Below are positions 35,721-43,536 of a DNA stretch of 64,000 nucleotides, piece after piece. This stretch comes from Desulfurispirillum indicum S5 (GTDB taxonomy: Bacteria > Chrysiogenota > Chrysiogenetes > Chrysiogenales > Chrysiogenaceae): contig NC_014836.1 in NCBI RefSeq assembly GCF_000177635.2, positions 2,120,001-2,184,000 of the forward strand. The letters run 5' to 3'. The notes beneath the pieces were generated by a model. It had not been told where the DNA came from and did no database searches. It saw nothing but the letters and a program-made list of their open reading frames with translations. Made by a program: the position numbers and the translations under genes. How positions within the stretch are numbered: the first letter of the stretch is position 1; the number at the start of each line of letters is the position of its first letter.

Positions 35721-38700
35721 TCAGATATAGTTCAGCAGGCTCAAACGCGAAGTGTTGCCATGCACTGCCAGAGCCGATTCATAGGCAATCCGATTCTGTT
35801 CCAGCTTCGTGGCCACGGCGACCATGTCTTCCATGGTGCCGCCCAGAGCCTTGGTAGTGAATTCCTTCTGCATGACATTGGTATTTTCATAACGCTGATC
35901 CAGCAGCTCAATACGGTGAGAGGTTGAGCCCACCGAAGCCAGCGAGTCCAGCACCTGATCCAGAGCCCGCTCCAGCTGGCCCACTTCACTGGCAGCGCCG
36001 GTCCCCATGGCCACCGTAAACTTGTCCTTGGCCACCAGGCTCCCTTCGGACAAGGAGAGGCTCACACCATCGCGCACAAAGACTTCGTCGTGCGCCGTGT
36101 TCACCGTGATGCGCCGCACATGGTCGCCCTTGAAGTCATATACGGTCATTTCCGCTGCGGCACCCGGCCTTCGCTTGCCGAACAGGTCCAGATGGGTATC
36201 GTCAAGGCCCTGCAGCGGCACTCCCCCATGATCAAGCTGCAGACTGAAGGGGTCGGCATTGGTGCCCAGGCCCACTATCGAAGCTTCGATGGGGGATTTG
36301 CCTTCACCCCCAAAGTGTTCATCCAGCGCCATCTGCAGTGACGTGGCGATGGCGGCCTGAATCTCCGCTGTGGTGCGCATGGTGCCATCTTCATTGCGGG
36401 TGAAGTCCAGCTTCAGGGTGGCGGCAGCGGAAGAGGATTTGGTGTAGTCCTCCATGGCAATGCTGATCACTTCATCGCCAAAGGGAATACGCATGGTCCG
36501 CTGGTCCACCTCGAAGCCGTTGAAATTCAGCTCAAAATCAAATTTCGACGCAGTTCCCCCCGCCGAAGCGTAGGAGCCACCAAAAAGACCATTGTCGTAG
36601 CCCAGGGTACCATAGGCGGAAGCCGGTGAGCTGGTCGTCACACCCTGGATATTCGTATTCCCGTTCCCGGTCACACTGAACATGACATTATCGCCGGCCT
36701 GCGACCCCTTGAAGCTCACCTGGATATTATTGGCAACCGCCGTGGAGTCCTTTTTGAGTTCGGAATTGATATAGTCCTCTATCTCCTGGAGGGAAGAGAA
36801 TATCCCCCCCGAAGGACTGCTTGAGAGGTGAACCTGGGTCGTCACATAATTGCCGCCCCCATTTGCCGAGGGAGGATTGTAGTAGGTGATCTGCAGCGAA
36901 CCCATGGCACTCAGGTGGTAACGGCCGGTGGTGCTGTCAAAGGCGCTGATAGTGCCATCGGCACTGGAGAGATCAGAGCGCCTGGTGTATTCCATCTGGC
37001 GTTTGATATCTTCGGTGCTCTCGCTGCTGGCGTAGATCTTGTCAATATCGAACGTCCACTGGGTATTATAGTTCCCCGTGAAGTCCCCCATCATGGCCGG
37101 CACCGTCGTGGAGCCAAACGCCCATTCCGAAGGAGCCTTGATGCCGGGCTGACCGATATCCAGGTTCAGGGCGTCCTCAAGATTCGTCAGGCTGCGGAAG
37201 ATATCCACCCCATAGCCTTCATGGGTGGTAGCCGAGGAGCCAAATGCCAGGGAGCCATTGCCTTTGAGGGCTATCTCACTGGTGGTCAGGCCCTCTGTCA
37301 CCGCCGTCCCCATGGGGATGCGAATATTCAGACCATTGGCCACACTGATCGGTTGCCCGTAGTAGGTACTGGGGTCAAGGGAATAGTTTTCCAGCAGTTT
37401 ATTGCCATACTTGTCTTCAATGGTCAGCAGAATGCCTTCATCCATACCCACTATACCAGCGGTTCCCGCGCCACTTGCCATATGCAGGCTGATATTCCAG
37501 CGATTGTCATCGCGGGCGGTATAGTTTCCGCTAATATAGTAGTCGTTGAACTGGCCTCCCAGGGGATTCAGTCGTGTCAGCGGAGTCACATGGCGCACAC
37601 CTTCGTTATTGGTGCTCACATTGACCTCAAGGCGACTCGGACCAGCGTGCAGATCCACAAAAGCCAGCTTGCCGTTTTCCGTGATGTAGGCGTCTATGGT
37701 GTTACCATAGAGGTTTTCCACAAAGCGCAGCATATCCTCAACGGGCTTTTCCGGATCGATGACGTATTTGATATTCGCCCCTTGCGCCGTAATGACGTTC
37801 TGGTCAAGCCCCAGCTTCGACATGGGGTCAGCGAAGATACTCATGGTGATATCCTCGCCCACATCAAGGCTTTCAAAGAGGATATTGCTGCCATCGGAGC
37901 GTACATTCACCATATCCTGGGGAAGCACATTAAAGCTCAGGGTCTGGCCAATCTCAAAGACCGAATTCGGGTCAAAGGATATCTGTACCCCATTGCTGAG
38001 GCTGGTGCGGCCATCACCGGAGATATAGACCGTCTCCTTGACATTGCCGAAGTTGTCCATCACATCGAAGAACCCACCACCCAGGTTGAAGTCAATAGTC
38101 CCGGCCGCAGAGTAGTTGCCCGGCTGGAAGGTGCCGCCCGAGGTGACCGCCGAACGGGCGCGCAGAATCAGCGTCTCGCCATCGCCGGTATAACCGCTGA
38201 TATTGAGATTGGGACTGAGGGTGCGGGTGTTGTCGAAGACGTAAGTCGCCGTGGCACCGCCACTGAAGCTGAAGTTCCCCACCGACTGATCCAGACGGAT
38301 AGTGGCCCCGGTACCGGGGATCTCCACCGGATATTGATACACATCGGGACCGAGGGTCAGCGAACCCGAATAGGTTCCCGTATCGGTGGTAATAAAGTAG
38401 TTCAGGTTCCCGCCCGGAGGGATATCCAGATCGCCGGCGCTGCTGAAGACGATATCCTGAATAGCCGAACCATTGTAGCGCAGGTTGTCGTAACTGAGCA
38501 GCAGGCCATCGAGGTTGCCGCCACCGCCCGTGTAGGCGAAGCTGTCAACGGCTGGCTCCGTGGCTGCCGCAAAGTCAAAGGTCATGCCGGCACTGATTGT
38601 CTGCCCGCCCAGAAAGCCGATATTCAGACCAAAATCCGTGCCACTGACAATGCCATCATCCTTGATGCTGTACTTGAAGCCTACCTGGGGGTTGTCGATG

Positions 38701-40250
38701 GTCATCTCCCCCAGGAAGCTGGCAGACGCAGAGTTCAGGGCACCAGTATCCGTATACTGGGTCTTCTCGTCAAAGCCGAAGATCTGGAAAGTGACCGGGC
38801 CGCCTGTGCCGATATCGGCATCGTTGACGGCTTTGATGGTGATCTGCTTGTACTGGTCGTAGGCGATATTGCCCGTCGTGAAAAGCCGGTTATTGACCGT
38901 GCCGAGGCCATCATCATAGAGCGGCCCAACGGCAGCTCCTGCCGCGTTCATGCCACCGCTGAAGTACACGGGATGGTTGTTCTGGGACGCAATGGCTTCA
39001 TTGATGGCGGTCTGCATGGCAAACGCCAGGCGATCGGTGCTGGCGTAGCCGTTCTGAGGTATGGTGATGTTCTTGGTTACACCATCAAGCTGATTGTTGC
39101 CGTAGTATAAGGAAAAGCTGCGTTCTGCTGCGGTCGTCTTGGTGTGGTCAAGCAAAGCGGCTTTGGGTGACATGATGCGGGCAGCACCAATGCGGTTGCC
39201 CGAATGGTCAAAGCCGTTAAAGGAGATGGTGTCGCCCTTCTGCACGTTGGCGTTATCGATATCCTTAAAAAGAGTGATGTTCTTGATGGGCGCGCCATTG
39301 GCAAAGTTCACAAAGGTGGTCTCTATCTGTTTGGCGGTCTGGGAAAAGATATTATTGCCCGGAACATTGAGGTTCACCTGGTCGTTGACCCCCACCTGTG
39401 CCTTCATCAGGCCATCATCACCCAGATAGGAGAGGCTGTCACCGGGGCTGTAGCTGAACTGGATACGCTGCCCACCCGTGAAACCCTTGGGTATTTCGAT
39501 GGCAACTCCCCGACCGGTATCGATAAAATCACCCGGATTCACCTGGTAACGGGAAACCGTGGTCAGATTATTCATCTTGCCGTTGCCGCTGTTGTCCGAA
39601 CCATTGGAATCCAGAGAAACCGCGCGCCCCTGGGAGTCAGTCATGGACACGGTCGCTACCTTGGAGTTCTCGTCATAGCTGATCAGGATTTCATAGTCGC
39701 CCTTGGGGAGCTCAGGCAGATCAGAGAAAACCCCCTTGGTATATAACCCAGCGCCAGCGGTTCCAATATAGGAACCCTGGCGGATGATTTCGATTTCCTG
39801 TTTGCGCTCCTGGAATGGCTCATCGCGCGTCTGATAGCCGCCAAAGATATAGCGATCCAGGTGCTTGGTATTGCCAAGGCTGATCAGTTCGTTGCGCATG
39901 GCTTCCACATCATTGGCCAGCGCCTTGCGGGCATCGGGGGACATGGAGTCTGAGGCCCCAGCCAGGGCGTAGTTGTTCTTGGCCATCTGCAGGATGGAGC
40001 TCATGGACTGCAGGCTGCCATCGGAAAGATTCAGCCACGTCTGGGCATTGGAGATATTGCGCTGGTACTGGGTAAAGAGATCAATGCTGTTCTGGAAGGA
40101 GAGAGCCTGGCTGATGCGCACCGGATCATTGTTGGGAGCCAGCAATGTGCGGTTTTTGGCGATCTGCTGATTATTCTCCAGCATCCGGTTCAGGCTCTGG
40201 TTTATCCCCCCCAGAAAATTGAGGGAGAGCATATTACTGGTGACTCGCAT
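35721..40250 (-). CDS. flgL: Giant flagellar hook-filament junction protein FlgL (HAP3)
   Basis: A 1509-residue protein with FlgL ends. The N-terminus ('MRVTSNMLSLNFLGGINQSL', then 'SDGSLQSMSSIL' and 'YIFGGYQTRDEPF') and the C-terminus ('ALGGTMEDMVAVATKLEQ', ending 'SRLSLLNYI') form the coiled D0/D1 helices that join hook and filament. Typical FlgL is about 300-500 residues, so roughly 1000 extra residues are inserted. The insert is Gly/Asn/Thr-rich and predicted beta-rich, likely forming outward domains. No internal stop or frameshift breaks the frame. AAGGGG precedes the ATG. It is the last gene of flgM-flgN-flgK-flgL. Confidence 0.92.
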   Translation of the reverse strand: MRVTSNMLSLNFLGGINQSLNRMLENNQQIAKNRTLLAPNNDPVRISQALSFQNSIDLFTQYQRNISNAQTWLNLSDGSLQSMSSILQMAKNNYALAGASDSMSPDARKALANDVEAMRNELISLGNTKHLDRYIFGGYQTRDEPFQERKQEIEIIRQGSYIGTAGAGLYTKGVFSDLPELPKGDYEILISYDENSKVATVSMTDSQGRAVSLDSNGSDNSGNGKMNNLTTVSRYQVNPGDFIDTGRGVAIEIPKGFTGGQRIQFSYSPGDSLSYLGDDGLMKAQVGVNDQVNLNVPGNNIFSQTAKQIETTFVNFANGAPIKNITLFKDIDNANVQKGDTISFNGFDHSGNRIGAARIMSPKAALLDHTKTTAAERSFSLYYGNNQLDGVTKNITIPQNGYASTDRLAFAMQTAINEAIASQNNHPVYFSGGMNAAGAAVGPLYDDGLGTVNNRLFTTGNIAYDQYKQITIKAVNDADIGTGGPVTFQIFGFDEKTQYTDTGALNSASASFLGEMTIDNPQVGFKYSIKDDGIVSGTDFGLNIGFLGGQTISAGMTFDFAAATEPAVDSFAYTGGGGNLDGLLLSYDNLRYNGSAIQDIVFSSAGDLDIPPGGNLNYFITTDTGTYSGSLTLGPDVYQYPVEIPGTGATIRLDQSVGNFSFSGGATATYVFDNTRTLSPNLNISGYTGDGETLILRARSAVTSGGTFQPGNYSAAGTIDFNLGGGFFDVMDNFGNVKETVYISGDGRTSLSNGVQISFDPNSVFEIGQTLSFNVLPQDMVNVRSDGSNILFESLDVGEDITMSIFADPMSKLGLDQNVITAQGANIKYVIDPEKPVEDMLRFVENLYGNTIDAYITENGKLAFVDLHAGPSRLEVNVSTNNEGVRHVTPLTRLNPLGGQFNDYYISGNYTARDDNRWNISLHMASGAGTAGIVGMDEGILLTIEDKYGNKLLENYSLDPSTYYGQPISVANGLNIRIPMGTAVTEGLTTSEIALKGNGSLAFGSSATTHEGYGVDIFRSLTNLEDALNLDIGQPGIKAPSEWAFGSTTVPAMMGDFTGNYNTQWTFDIDKIYASSESTEDIKRQMEYTRRSDLSSADGTISAFDSTTGRYHLSAMGSLQITYYNPPSANGGGNYVTTQVHLSSSPSGGIFSSLQEIEDYINSELKKDSTAVANNIQVSFKGSQAGDNVMFSVTGNGNTNIQGVTTSSPASAYGTLGYDNGLFGGSYASAGGTASKFDFELNFNGFEVDQRTMRIPFGDEVISIAMEDYTKSSSAAATLKLDFTRNEDGTMRTTAEIQAAIATSLQMALDEHFGGEGKSPIEASIVGLGTNADPFSLQLDHGGVPLQGLDDTHLDLFGKRRPGAAAEMTVYDFKGDHVRRITVNTAHDEVFVRDGVSLSLSEGSLVAKDKFTVAMGTGAASEVGQLERALDQVLDSLASVGSTSHRIELLDQRYENTNVMQKEFTTKALGGTMEDMVAVATKLEQNRIAYESALAVHGNTSRLSLLNYI

Positions 40251-40284: not shown

Positions 40285-41994
40285 CTATACGCCCATTCGA
40301 TTGACGATATTGTCAAGCAGGCGGTCAATGGTGGTAATAAAGCGTGATGATGCCTCAAAGGAGCGTTGAAATTTCAGCATATTGGTCAGTTCTTCGTTTT
40401 CATTGACGCCGGAGATACTTTCGCGTTTCACCTCGATCTGGAAGCGAATCAGCTGGGTGGTCTCGAGTGAGTCAATATTGATTCGCACGTCCATGCCGAT
40501 CTTGCTGACAAAATGATTATAGTTTTCGCCAATGGTCATGCCACCCATGACCTTGGCATTCCGTAACTCGGCAATCAGATTGGCATTGCGGTTGTCACCC
40601 GGCTCACCACTGAAGCTGGTGGCAAGGCGAGTCGTATCCTCTGCCACATAGCTGTTGACCCCGATGCTCTTGGCGTCGTGCCCCTTGAAGAAGGTGTTCA
40701 GCCCAATAGCTGTCAGCGCGTTGCTGGTGTCGTTGTACAGGACAAAGGTATTCCCGTTGTTACCACGGATTTCCAGCTGATTATCAGCATTAATGCTGGC
40801 ACTGAAGAGCCCGCCTTCCGCCACCCCGTCGGCCTGATCCAGCTTCATGGCAATCTGGCGCAGGGAGTCGCCCTCGTTGATGCGGATCTCAAAGGTCTGC
40901 AGTTCGCCCCCCGCAGGGTCAAAGACCTTGAGCTGAAAACTGCCATTCTGAATCTGAAAGGGCGTATTGTCATTGAGCGGAGTGCGACTGTTCTCAACGC
41001 TGTACTGGGAAGATACCGCACCGAAAGGCTTGGTCACCATGCCATTGGCGTGAACCTTGTTGACCTCCTCGATAATCGTACGCGAAAGATCATCAAGTTT
41101 TTCGATGTAGCCAGGAATTGTCTTATCGCGCATTTCCATATACGCGCCGATCTGACCATTATTGGAAAAGTTCGTTATCTTGCTGGTGTGGCCGGAGGTG
41201 CTTTCGAACAGCAGTTCGCTGCTGAACTCACCGGTACGCTTATTGATCAGTTTCGCAGCATAGTCACGATCCACAAGTGTCTTGCCGTCAAAGAAGACCG
41301 TCGCCTGCCCCTGGGGATCAATGTCCACTTTGATATCAATATATTCCGCCAGCTTGTTCAGGATCATATCCCGTTGATCCAGCAGATCATGGGCCGGATT
41401 ACCGTGAGCTGAAGTTTTGGCTATTTGTGTGTTGAGAGTTGCCAGCGACTGCAATTGCGAGTTGACATCGTTGACCATACTGTCAACCCGGCCAGTGTAC
41501 TGGGCCTGCAGGTCGTTGAGCTGCTGGTAGGTGCCCTGGATGGTGTTGATCAGAAAATTGGCTGACTCTATAACCGTGGAGCGTTTGGAGGCGGCTTCCT
41601 GGGAGGTGTCCGTGGGCGCATTGGCCAGGTCGTGCCATGAGTCCCAGAACTGGGTCAGAGAATATCCAAGTCCCATGCCTTCGGTCTCGTTGAAGAGCAT
41701 TTCAATTTCGTTATAGGCCATGTAGTTGGCTTCGTACTGCCCGCCCTTGGTGATAGCGGTCCGCAGGGACTGCTGCACATACTCATCGTGGACCCGCTGC
41801 ACCTGGTTGAGATTGACTCCCTGTCCGTACTGCAGATTTGCAATACGCAGTGGCTGGTTGGCCTGCAGCACAACTCTCTGTCGACTGAAGCCTTCGGTGT
41901 TCATATTACTGAGGTTGTGACCAACGGTCATCAGGGCGCTCTGGCTGGCGAGCACACCGGAAAGACCAACATTCAGGGACTGAAAGGTTCCCAT
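40285..41994 (-). CDS. flgK: Flagellar hook-associated protein FlgK (HAP1)
   Basis: A 569-residue structural protein of the hook-filament junction. The N-terminus 'LSGVLASQSALMTVGHNLSN' and 'NTEGFSRQRV' motif are typical of axial proteins, as is the C-terminus ending in 'FQRSFEASSRFITTIDRLLD'. The start at 41994 has AAGGAG seven bases upstream. The length is normal, unlike its giant partner FlgL 34 nt downstream. Confidence 0.95.
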   Translation of the reverse strand: MGTFQSLNVGLSGVLASQSALMTVGHNLSNMNTEGFSRQRVVLQANQPLRIANLQYGQGVNLNQVQRVHDEYVQQSLRTAITKGGQYEANYMAYNEIEMLFNETEGMGLGYSLTQFWDSWHDLANAPTDTSQEAASKRSTVIESANFLINTIQGTYQQLNDLQAQYTGRVDSMVNDVNSQLQSLATLNTQIAKTSAHGNPAHDLLDQRDMILNKLAEYIDIKVDIDPQGQATVFFDGKTLVDRDYAAKLINKRTGEFSSELLFESTSGHTSKITNFSNNGQIGAYMEMRDKTIPGYIEKLDDLSRTIIEEVNKVHANGMVTKPFGAVSSQYSVENSRTPLNDNTPFQIQNGSFQLKVFDPAGGELQTFEIRINEGDSLRQIAMKLDQADGVAEGGLFSASINADNQLEIRGNNGNTFVLYNDTSNALTAIGLNTFFKGHDAKSIGVNSYVAEDTTRLATSFSGEPGDNRNANLIAELRNAKVMGGMTIGENYNHFVSKIGMDVRINIDSLETTQLIRFQIEVKRESISGVNENEELTNMLKFQRSFEASSRFITTIDRLLDNIVNRMGV

Positions 41995-42059
41995 AACCAG
42001 CTCCTTATACACAAAACCGCAGGCTGTAATCCTTCACGCAAAGGATCAGCAGCCCACGG

Positions 42060-42542
42060 TCATACTTTTTGGCTCATGAAAAGTGATTGACGCTTCTGTG
42101 TCACTGCGCCATCGGACGCATACTGCTTCGACGATTTCAACTCGTTATCCACAAGGGAGAGAAAGTGTCCATTGACCTTCAAGGCACTGTGCAGAATCTG
42201 ACGATTCATGTACGTCTGACGGTCAACATCCTTGACCAGCTCGCTCAGGCGAACCAGCTCATCGGTGAAATCTCCACCCTCCGGCTCCATGTGGGCCGCT
42301 ATCGCCAGCAGCTTGCACTCCACATCGTGGGTTGAAGCGTAGTCCTTCATAAAGCTGTCAAGGGTATCCTCCAGCAGGCGGATTTTCAGCACCAGGGTCT
42401 CCATCAGGTTACTTACCCGATCAACGCCCTGCACATCCCCCTTGACAATATGCTCACGGTTTTCCTGCAGCATATCGCGCAATTGCGCATAATAGGTATA
42501 GAGCTCCGCCAGTGTAGCCGAGCCAGTCTTGTGCGTACTCAA
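42060..42542 (-). CDS. FlgN-like flagellar export chaperone
   Basis: A 160-residue helical protein in the position where FlgN, the export chaperone for FlgK and FlgL, is expected, between flgM and flgK. It is mostly amphipathic helix with 'LAELYTYYAQLRDMLQENRE' near the start. Sequence similarity to FlgN is weak, as is usual, so the call leans on gene order and helical character. The start is TTG with GGAGG six bases upstream. Confidence 0.75.
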   Translation of the reverse strand: MSTHKTGSATLAELYTYYAQLRDMLQENREHIVKGDVQGVDRVSNLMETLVLKIRLLEDTLDSFMKDYASTHDVECKLLAIAAHMEPEGGDFTDELVRLSELVKDVDRQTYMNRQILHSALKVNGHFLSLVDNELKSSKQYASDGAVTQKRQSLFMSQKV

Positions 42543-42576: not shown

Positions 42577-42879
42577 CTACTTTTTGCCAAGTACCTCTGC
42601 CAGTTTCGCCGCCAGCATATCGAGATTATAGCGATAGTCTCCACGTTGAATGGCTGCCTTCAGGGTCTCAACCCGCTCATCACGCACCTCTGGTGCATCT
42701 GAAGCGACTTTGGTTGCCTTGGCGACATCCATATACGTGCCGGAAAAGTGAATTTTATCGGCATTTCCCCCAGCGCCTTCCTTACCCTGAACTGCCTCGT
42801 CCCCACGGGATTTCCCCTGGGTGCGATTGTTTTTCAGGTAGGCGTCAATAGAAGAAGAGCCGTAGCCATTGACTTTCAT
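42577..42879 (-). CDS. flgM: Anti-sigma-28 factor FlgM
   Basis: A 100-residue inhibitor of the flagellar sigma factor FliA. The disordered, charged N-terminal half is followed by the sigma-binding C-terminal helices ('VETLKAAIQRGDYRYNLDMLAAKLAEVL'; core 'LKAAIQRGDYRYNLDMLAAK'). AAAGGAGG precedes the ATG. It is the first gene behind a sigma-28 promoter, giving the feedback loop seen in other flagellar systems. Confidence 0.9.
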   Translation of the reverse strand: MKVNGYGSSSIDAYLKNNRTQGKSRGDEAVQGKEGAGGNADKIHFSGTYMDVAKATKVASDAPEVRDERVETLKAAIQRGDYRYNLDMLAAKLAEVLGKK

Positions 42880-43080: not shown

Positions 43081-43536
43081 TCAACGAGCGAGGTAGAAGT
43101 CCTCCAGCATCTTCTGGTTCACCTTCAGGGGCTGGGACGCCCCAAAGCGCTCAGGCGCGCCGGAGAGGCCAAAACTCAGCCGCGAGTCAAACTGACTCAC
43201 ATCCCCCAGGGAAGGCGCGTGTTTCAGGGGTTCACCCGTCAGCTGCTCGTACATCATTCCCGCAAGCCCCATTCCTCCAGTAGTGCTGGTACTGGCTGTC
43301 TTGGAGAATTCGGTGTCCAGAAACGAGGTGAAGATCTCCTCAGCGTTGGACTTTTCAATCAGTCCACCATCTGCTATGGTCTTCCTCATCGTCGTGAACA
43401 TGATGTTCACAAGCAGTGACTCAAAATGCTGAGCAGATCGCAGGATCTGTCCCCGCTCCTCGTCGGTCAGGTTCTCGTTTTTCTTGCTGTGGTGCGGCGA
43501 GACCACGGACATATCATTGACAGTAGCCGGTATCAT
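43081..43536 (-). CDS. flgJ: Flagellar rod-binding protein, FlgJ N-terminal type
   Basis: A 151-residue protein matching only the rod-binding half of FlgJ ('SAQHFESLLVNIMFTTMRKT', and 'MYEQLTGEPL' near residue 93). The muramidase domain of gammaproteobacterial FlgJ is absent, as in many other phyla where a separate hydrolase cuts the wall. GGAGGAG precedes the ATG. It is 200 nt upstream of flgM and reads in the same direction, but the sigma-28 promoter lies between them, so it can be expressed as a middle gene. Confidence 0.88.
   Translation of the reverse strand: MIPATVNDMSVVSPHHSKKNENLTDEERGQILRSAQHFESLLVNIMFTTMRKTIADGGLIEKSNAEEIFTSFLDTEFSKTASTSTTGGMGLAGMMYEQLTGEPLKHAPSLGDVSQFDSRLSFGLSGAPERFGASQPLKVNQKMLEDFYLAR

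Follow-up and report, generated by a model that had tools for sequence, protein, structure and literature searches.

A long flgL gene lies directly downstream of flgK in D. indicum

D. indicum S5 belongs to the Chrysiogenetes and is a spiral-shaped, motile anaerobe; its chromosome has been finished at 108x and 222x coverage (PMC3368425). The genome used here is a single contig of 2,928,377 bases, and the window is the whole stretch of 64,000 nucleotides of it that was analysed; positions refer to the window unless stated otherwise. A group of flagellar genes is encoded on its minus strand. In it, a gene for a flgJ-like rod-binding protein (43081..43536; PF10135, 51.5 bits) is followed by further genes in the order flgM-flgN-flgK-flgL, where flgM (42577..42879; PF04316, 46.5 bits) encodes the anti-sigma-28 factor, flgN (42060..42542; PF05130, 43.7 bits) the export chaperone for FlgK/FlgL, and flgK (40285..42012; FlgK_D1 186.5 bits, TIGR02492 334.5 bits) a FlgK of ordinary size (575 aa). 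The flgL gene (35721..40250, minus strand) lies directly downstream of flgK after a gap of 34 bases. It starts with ATG and encodes the hook-filament junction protein of 1509 aa with no internal stop; the calculated mass and pI of the product are 162 kDa and 4.6, respectively, and it has no cysteine.

The 1509-aa protein scored 164.7 bits with TIGR02550, the NCBIfam equivalog of FlgL, in three stretches, exceeding the curated cut-off of 127.2 bits. Its first 150 residues matched solved FlgL structures in the PDB, and helices of the FlgL-type D0/D1 region were found at both protein ends by TIGR02550, by alignment with C. jejuni FlgL (PDB 9GSX) and in the structural model of a relative. The protein is also the sole FlgL candidate in the genome. 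Judged from these sequence comparisons, the gene at 35721..40250 is the flgL of this organism. The first-pass annotation had recognized FlgL ends on this giant frame and a FlgK of normal size beside it, and both observations held.

The D0/D1 region is common to flagellin and FlgL, and the protein does give Flagellin_N matches, which would also suit a giant flagellin of the filament. The strength of these matches (35.9–40.7 bits, against 140–162 bits in true flagellins) argues against it, as do the score above the FlgL equivalog cut-off, the position directly downstream of flgN-flgK and the lack of another FlgL candidate in the genome. Flagellin_C gave no match in this protein (Pfam), so that it does not combine the N- and C-termini of a flagellin, and the true flagellins of D. 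indicum are encoded elsewhere in the genome, away from flgL. The protein is thus most improbably a filament subunit.

An open frame of 760 aa was noticed antisense within flgL (36828..39110, plus strand). Another giant flgL, unrelated to this one, has a long antisense frame comparable to it (G187, L093), and the frame of D. indicum is probably a codon-usage shadow.

The insert consists of predicted outer domains with repeated modules

The N-terminal D0/D1 helices correspond to residues 1–150 (39801..40250, minus strand, as are all features of the protein given below), as delimited by Flagellin_N (residues 4–139), TIGR02550 (residues 2–153) and PDB FlgL matches (residues 1–149). The C-terminal D1/D0 helices correspond to residues 1410–1509 (35724..36023), as indicated by the phylum alignment (A1), by the C-terminus of C. 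jejuni FlgL and by the model, in which the matching region is helical. Residues ~151–1409 (36024..39800) between them make an insert of ~1260 residues and, by calculation, 134 kDa out of the 162-kDa protein; its assignment to outer domains draws on phylum conservation, purifying selection and models. A large extra stretch between the FlgL ends had been claimed from the sequence alone and was confirmed, its beta-rich nature being a prediction.

No Pfam family matched inside the D. indicum insert, the insert profile found nothing significant among PDB sequences, and no sequence kinship was detected with the insert of the flagellins of the same genome (hhalign probability 2.6%). Profile self-comparison showed that one proximal and two distal stretches of the insert are copies of one module (probability 97–98%). 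The proximal one, a hook-IN-like copy A at approximately residues 355–535 (38646..39188), matched the distal modules at 97–98% and is interrupted by a lineage-specific extension. The distal ones are copy C at approximately residues 1140–1260 (36471..36833), which matched the neighbouring distal module at 96.8%, and hook-IN-like copy B at approximately residues 1265–1350 (36201..36458), which matched copy A at 97.8%. No tandem DNA repeats of note were found, and the repeats are visible at the profile level only. Among relatives, Flagellin_IN (PF07196, the hook IN motif) matched 4 of 17 FlgLs with a best E-value of 9e-10, matches being counted anywhere along the protein.

Two further stretches of the insert stand out. 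The module EdmLrFvEnLYGNTidA..tenGKLafvDlhaG at approximately residues 833–876 (37623..37754) is apparently shared with Campylobacter-type FlgL; the A2 profile matched it to residues 268–321 of 9GSX (i-Evalue 0.0022) and to a 9GSX-like FlgL in genome G091 (i-Evalues 8.4e-7 and 6.8e-6). The most conserved stretch of the insert in the phylum alignment (FRSLxNLxxALNL ... GxFxGNYN) spans approximately residues 1012–1067 (37050..37217).

Structure prediction, which had been proposed as a check of the insert, succeeded for a relative and poorly for D. indicum itself, where residues 150–1349 were predicted at a mean pLDDT of 44 and were left out of fold claims. The model of the complete 1138-aa FlgL of Calditerrivibrio reached a mean pLDDT of 78.3 and showed helical termini separated by many beta-sheet domains. 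Its best fold match in the PDB was 9AU6, the flagellin filament of Geovibrio thiophilus (E 8e-13), and the second distinct protein was 9GSX, the FlgL ring of C. jejuni (E 4e-11). The TM-scores were low (0.14–0.28), as expected for multi-domain chains, and therefore these modelled matches support the general class rather than the identity of each domain.

Giant FlgL is conserved throughout the phylum

FlgL matches were obtained in 49 of the 51 same-phylum genomes searched, and collinear orthologues of the D. indicum gene are present in 37 same-phylum genomes. In the scan of GTDB genome contigs, a single-protein query gave no match and an alignment-based query recovered the named relatives, which include the Deferribacterota Denitrovibrio, Seleniivibrio and Calditerrivibrio. 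All the complete same-phylum FlgLs (n = 38, including that of D. indicum) were 1138–1532 aa long and collinear, so that the comparison of lengths among relatives called for in the first-pass annotation revealed a giant size throughout the phylum. The FlgLs of two sister genera, of 1515 and 1523 aa, are identical to the D. indicum protein at 68% and 55% of positions, respectively, from end to end, and those of distant families of the phylum remain collinear at 24–36% identity with invariant residues throughout the insert. In Deferribacterota relatives flgK, encoding ~581–588 aa, is also directly upstream of flgL. Giant FlgL is an ancestral trait of the phylum.

A frame of 3226 aa taken for FlgL in genome G009 was rejected as an artefact of masked N. 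Two near-complete genomes of family f6 of the same phylum (G014 and G016) gave no FlgL match and a third of the same genus (G015) gave one; loss of flagella in the former two is possible.

The unusual length alone could be taken as a sign of an assembly error or a chance fusion of two genes, the event that the first-pass annotation had named as fatal to its reading. Looked for among the relatives, such an event was not found. The length is shared by two sister genera, FlgL is collinear across all families, and the D. indicum genome is finished at the above coverage (PMC3368425); an artefact of this kind was ruled out, and its probability is negligible. In all blocks of FlgL, variation was ~2–5 times as great at third as at second codon positions, and therefore the insert is translated and constrained. 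The FlgL insert is under purifying selection.

The conservation also bears on the possibility that the insert, instead of being a mechanical part, is a specialised binding collar for attachment to sediment, minerals or other cells. Flagellin outer domains serve adhesion in some bacteria (PMC10256154), and a large beta-rich insert would agree with such a use. No adhesin or binding-domain family was found at a significant score in D. indicum FlgL (Pfam), however, and the FlgLs of relatives gave weak or hook-type matches only. Every family of the phylum keeps the insert, whether its members come from termite or vertebrate guts or are thermophiles, and this agrees better with a structural role than with a ligand specific to one niche. 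In addition, a flagellum should contain only ~11 copies. Nothing was found in support of the adhesion suggested earlier, and we regard a binding collar as quite improbable.

The hook, filament and cap proteins are also enlarged

Enlargement in the D. indicum flagellum is not confined to FlgL. The hook protein FlgE has 1341 aa and is thus about three times as long as usual (L107:1435-5460, minus strand; genome C1 ~1643934-1647959), and is 805–1394 aa long in 14 same-phylum genomes. Five flagellin genes encode proteins of ~840–876 aa at four places (L084–L087; genome C1 ~1.37, 1.47, 1.69 and 2.40 Mb), none of which adjoins flgL, and they are related to 9AU6 over their full length (E 2.7e-154). 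The cap protein FliD has 924 aa (L088:2109-4883, plus strand) and gives weak Flagellin_IN matches. Thus FlgE, the flagellins and FliD are enlarged besides FlgL, and FlgK alone is ordinary; the earlier picture of FlgL as a lone giant among ordinary parts has to be abandoned.

Giant flagellins are known from Chrysiogenetes and Deferribacteres (Thomson et al, 2018; PMC6248924). The sole Flagellin_N protein longer than 1,000 aa in the D. indicum genome is FlgL, and flagellins of the sister genera are shorter than 930 aa. The published set of flagellins longer than 1,000 aa from these groups might include some FlgL despite the filter applied by its authors (PMC6248924). Annotators working on these phyla should be aware that a protein with the longest Flagellin_N frame can be FlgL and not flagellin.

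The lengths of flagellar proteins were compared from stop-to-stop frames in one genome per family in 44–45 other families and in 14 same-phylum genomes. FlgL in the other families was 292–1228 aa long with a median of 402 aa. Where the median flagellin was at least 700 aa, FlgL exceeded 900 aa (4/4 families), whereas FlgL of at least 700 aa was found in 4 of the 41 other families (Fisher p 5e-4). FlgL length in the other families was correlated with that of flagellin (rho 0.44) and FlgE (rho 0.45), the partial rho being 0.45 for flagellin with FlgE held constant and 0.47 for FlgE with flagellin held constant (n = 38), and the relation to FlgK was weaker (0.36). Within the phylum, FlgL followed FlgE (rho 0.90) and did not follow FlgK (rho -0.01; n = 14), and family means gave similar values with FlgE (rho 0.75), FliD (0.76) and flagellin (0.62) (n = 8); because the genomes are related, these within-phylum values are suggestive only. 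FlgL is 1.3–2.0 times as long as the flagellin of the same organism, and therefore simple matching of the filament in size can be only part of the explanation. In some families (G058 and G096) large flagellins of ~600 aa occur with a FlgL of ~300 aa.

Giant FlgLs of 907–1227 aa were also seen in five other families (G187:C37, L093; G168:C77, L092; G160:C1, L091; G066:C7, L090; G193:C37, L094). Their inserts are largely without sequence relation to that of D. indicum, and by sequence the enlargement in these families is apparently convergent.

The outer domains might also have grown in an ancestor by duplication of modules and persisted without a specific function, a neutral, historical inflation to which the repeated modules of the insert lend some weight. 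FlgL varies between 1138 and 1532 aa in the phylum, and therefore part of its length is dispensable somewhere. Purifying selection in every block of FlgL, invariant residues across the insert in all families and the way in which FlgL length follows that of FlgE and flagellin speak against it, and together they make inflation without function rather unlikely.

A proposed mechanical role of the insert

FlgL of both Salmonella and Campylobacter forms a ring of 11 subunits with its D2 domain exposed outside (PMC12221982). By analogy, the conserved terminal D0/D1 helices of D. indicum FlgL would assemble into a ring of 11 subunits that lies between FlgK and the first flagellins. The insert would form several outer beta domains, partly made of the repeated hook-IN-like modules, which would project from it. 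With 11 copies, a number taken from these two bacteria, 134 kDa per subunit amounts by calculation to ~1.5 MDa of extra outer-domain mass, and FlgL should thus form a broad collar at the hook-filament junction. The collar imagined in the first-pass annotation is plausible on this ground, with the correction that it would sit on a thick flagellum instead of an ordinary one.

The collar may represent the share of the junction in the general enlargement of the external flagellum, seen in the giant FlgE, the giant flagellins and the large FliD, as an old, phylum-wide inheritance. An ordinary FlgK lies between a large hook and a large filament, and restoring an unbroken outer shell is therefore the simplest role for the insert. 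Its most likely job would be mechanical, keeping the outer shell continuous where the thick hook meets the thick filament. The insert would probably span or cover the thin FlgK layer because FlgK stays ordinary in size, contacting the outer domains of the hook below and those of flagellin above. Bridging of the FlgK layer at a large radius is also suggested by the FlgL-FlgE length correlation (rho 0.90) with FlgK constant. In Pseudomonas, networks of flagellin outer domains give filaments the stability that is needed in viscous surroundings (PMC10256154), and the stiffening of filament or junction proposed earlier is plausible by the same analogy. We consider it likely that the FlgL ring of 11 subunits with its enlarged outer domains is a mechanical collar scaled to the enlarged hook and filament.

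Contact of the insert with a membranous flagellar sheath had also been suggested in the first-pass annotation, and the sheathed Helicobacter too has a large FlgL. Nothing in support of it was found, including any sign of a sheath in D. indicum. Flagella of Campylobacter have no sheath. The large FlgL of Campylobacter is nonetheless of the same kind (PMC12221982), and a sheath contact is accordingly very improbable.

Returning to the mechanical collar, a more specific and rather speculative form of it, which we hold to be unlikely although worth stating, is that FlgL serves as a clamp on the outside of the junction. Its insert would pass the ordinary-sized FlgK ring and link the outer domains of the two giant structures, hook and filament, to each other. 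If true, the junction of this phylum would have a second, outer load path that is lacking in known hook-filament junctions, and the clamp would account for a FlgL length that follows that of FlgE at a constant FlgK.

More generally, a junction ring of an expected ~11 copies can bear outer domains larger than those of hook or filament, and across bacteria the size of the junction varies along with that of hook and filament. The mechanical continuity of a flagellum with an enlarged outer shell and an unenlarged FlgK thereby becomes a testable question.

Comparison with known systems

A giant FlgL in Deferribacterota or Chrysiogenota was not found described in the open-access literature. In giant flagellins, too, the outer domains of an axial flagellar protein are enlarged, although these proteins are filament subunits making thick filaments and FlgL was excluded from the survey that described them (PMC6248924). 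The Geovibrio thiophilus filament (9AU6, 793 aa, Deferribacterota) is the same phylum type of appendage and a full-length relative of the D. indicum flagellins. Its protein is a filament subunit, whereas D. indicum FlgL belongs to the junction and its insert showed no kinship with those flagellins. Salmonella FlgL (HAP3, 317 aa, PDB 9GO6) has the terminal D0/D1 region in common with D. indicum FlgL and differs from it in having one small D2 and no bulky insert.

The closest system is found in Campylobacter, where FlgLs of 750–950 aa are linked to extra hook domains (PMC5691160) and where cryo-EM of C. jejuni showed 11 FlgL copies with a "bulky D2 domain" near the cap (PMC12221982). C. jejuni FlgL (750 aa, 9GSX) resembles that of D. 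indicum in its FlgL termini, its large outer-domain insert, the extra hook domains of the same organism and, apparently, the middle module. The large insert between the D1 halves that marks the Campylobacter type is present in D. indicum with ~1260 residues. D. indicum FlgL has about twice the length of the C. jejuni protein and carries repeated hook-IN-like modules besides, and most of its insert is without detectable sequence relation to 9GSX. D. indicum FlgL thus joins the FlgLs already known to have enlarged outer domains, of which it represents the largest class met in this comparison.
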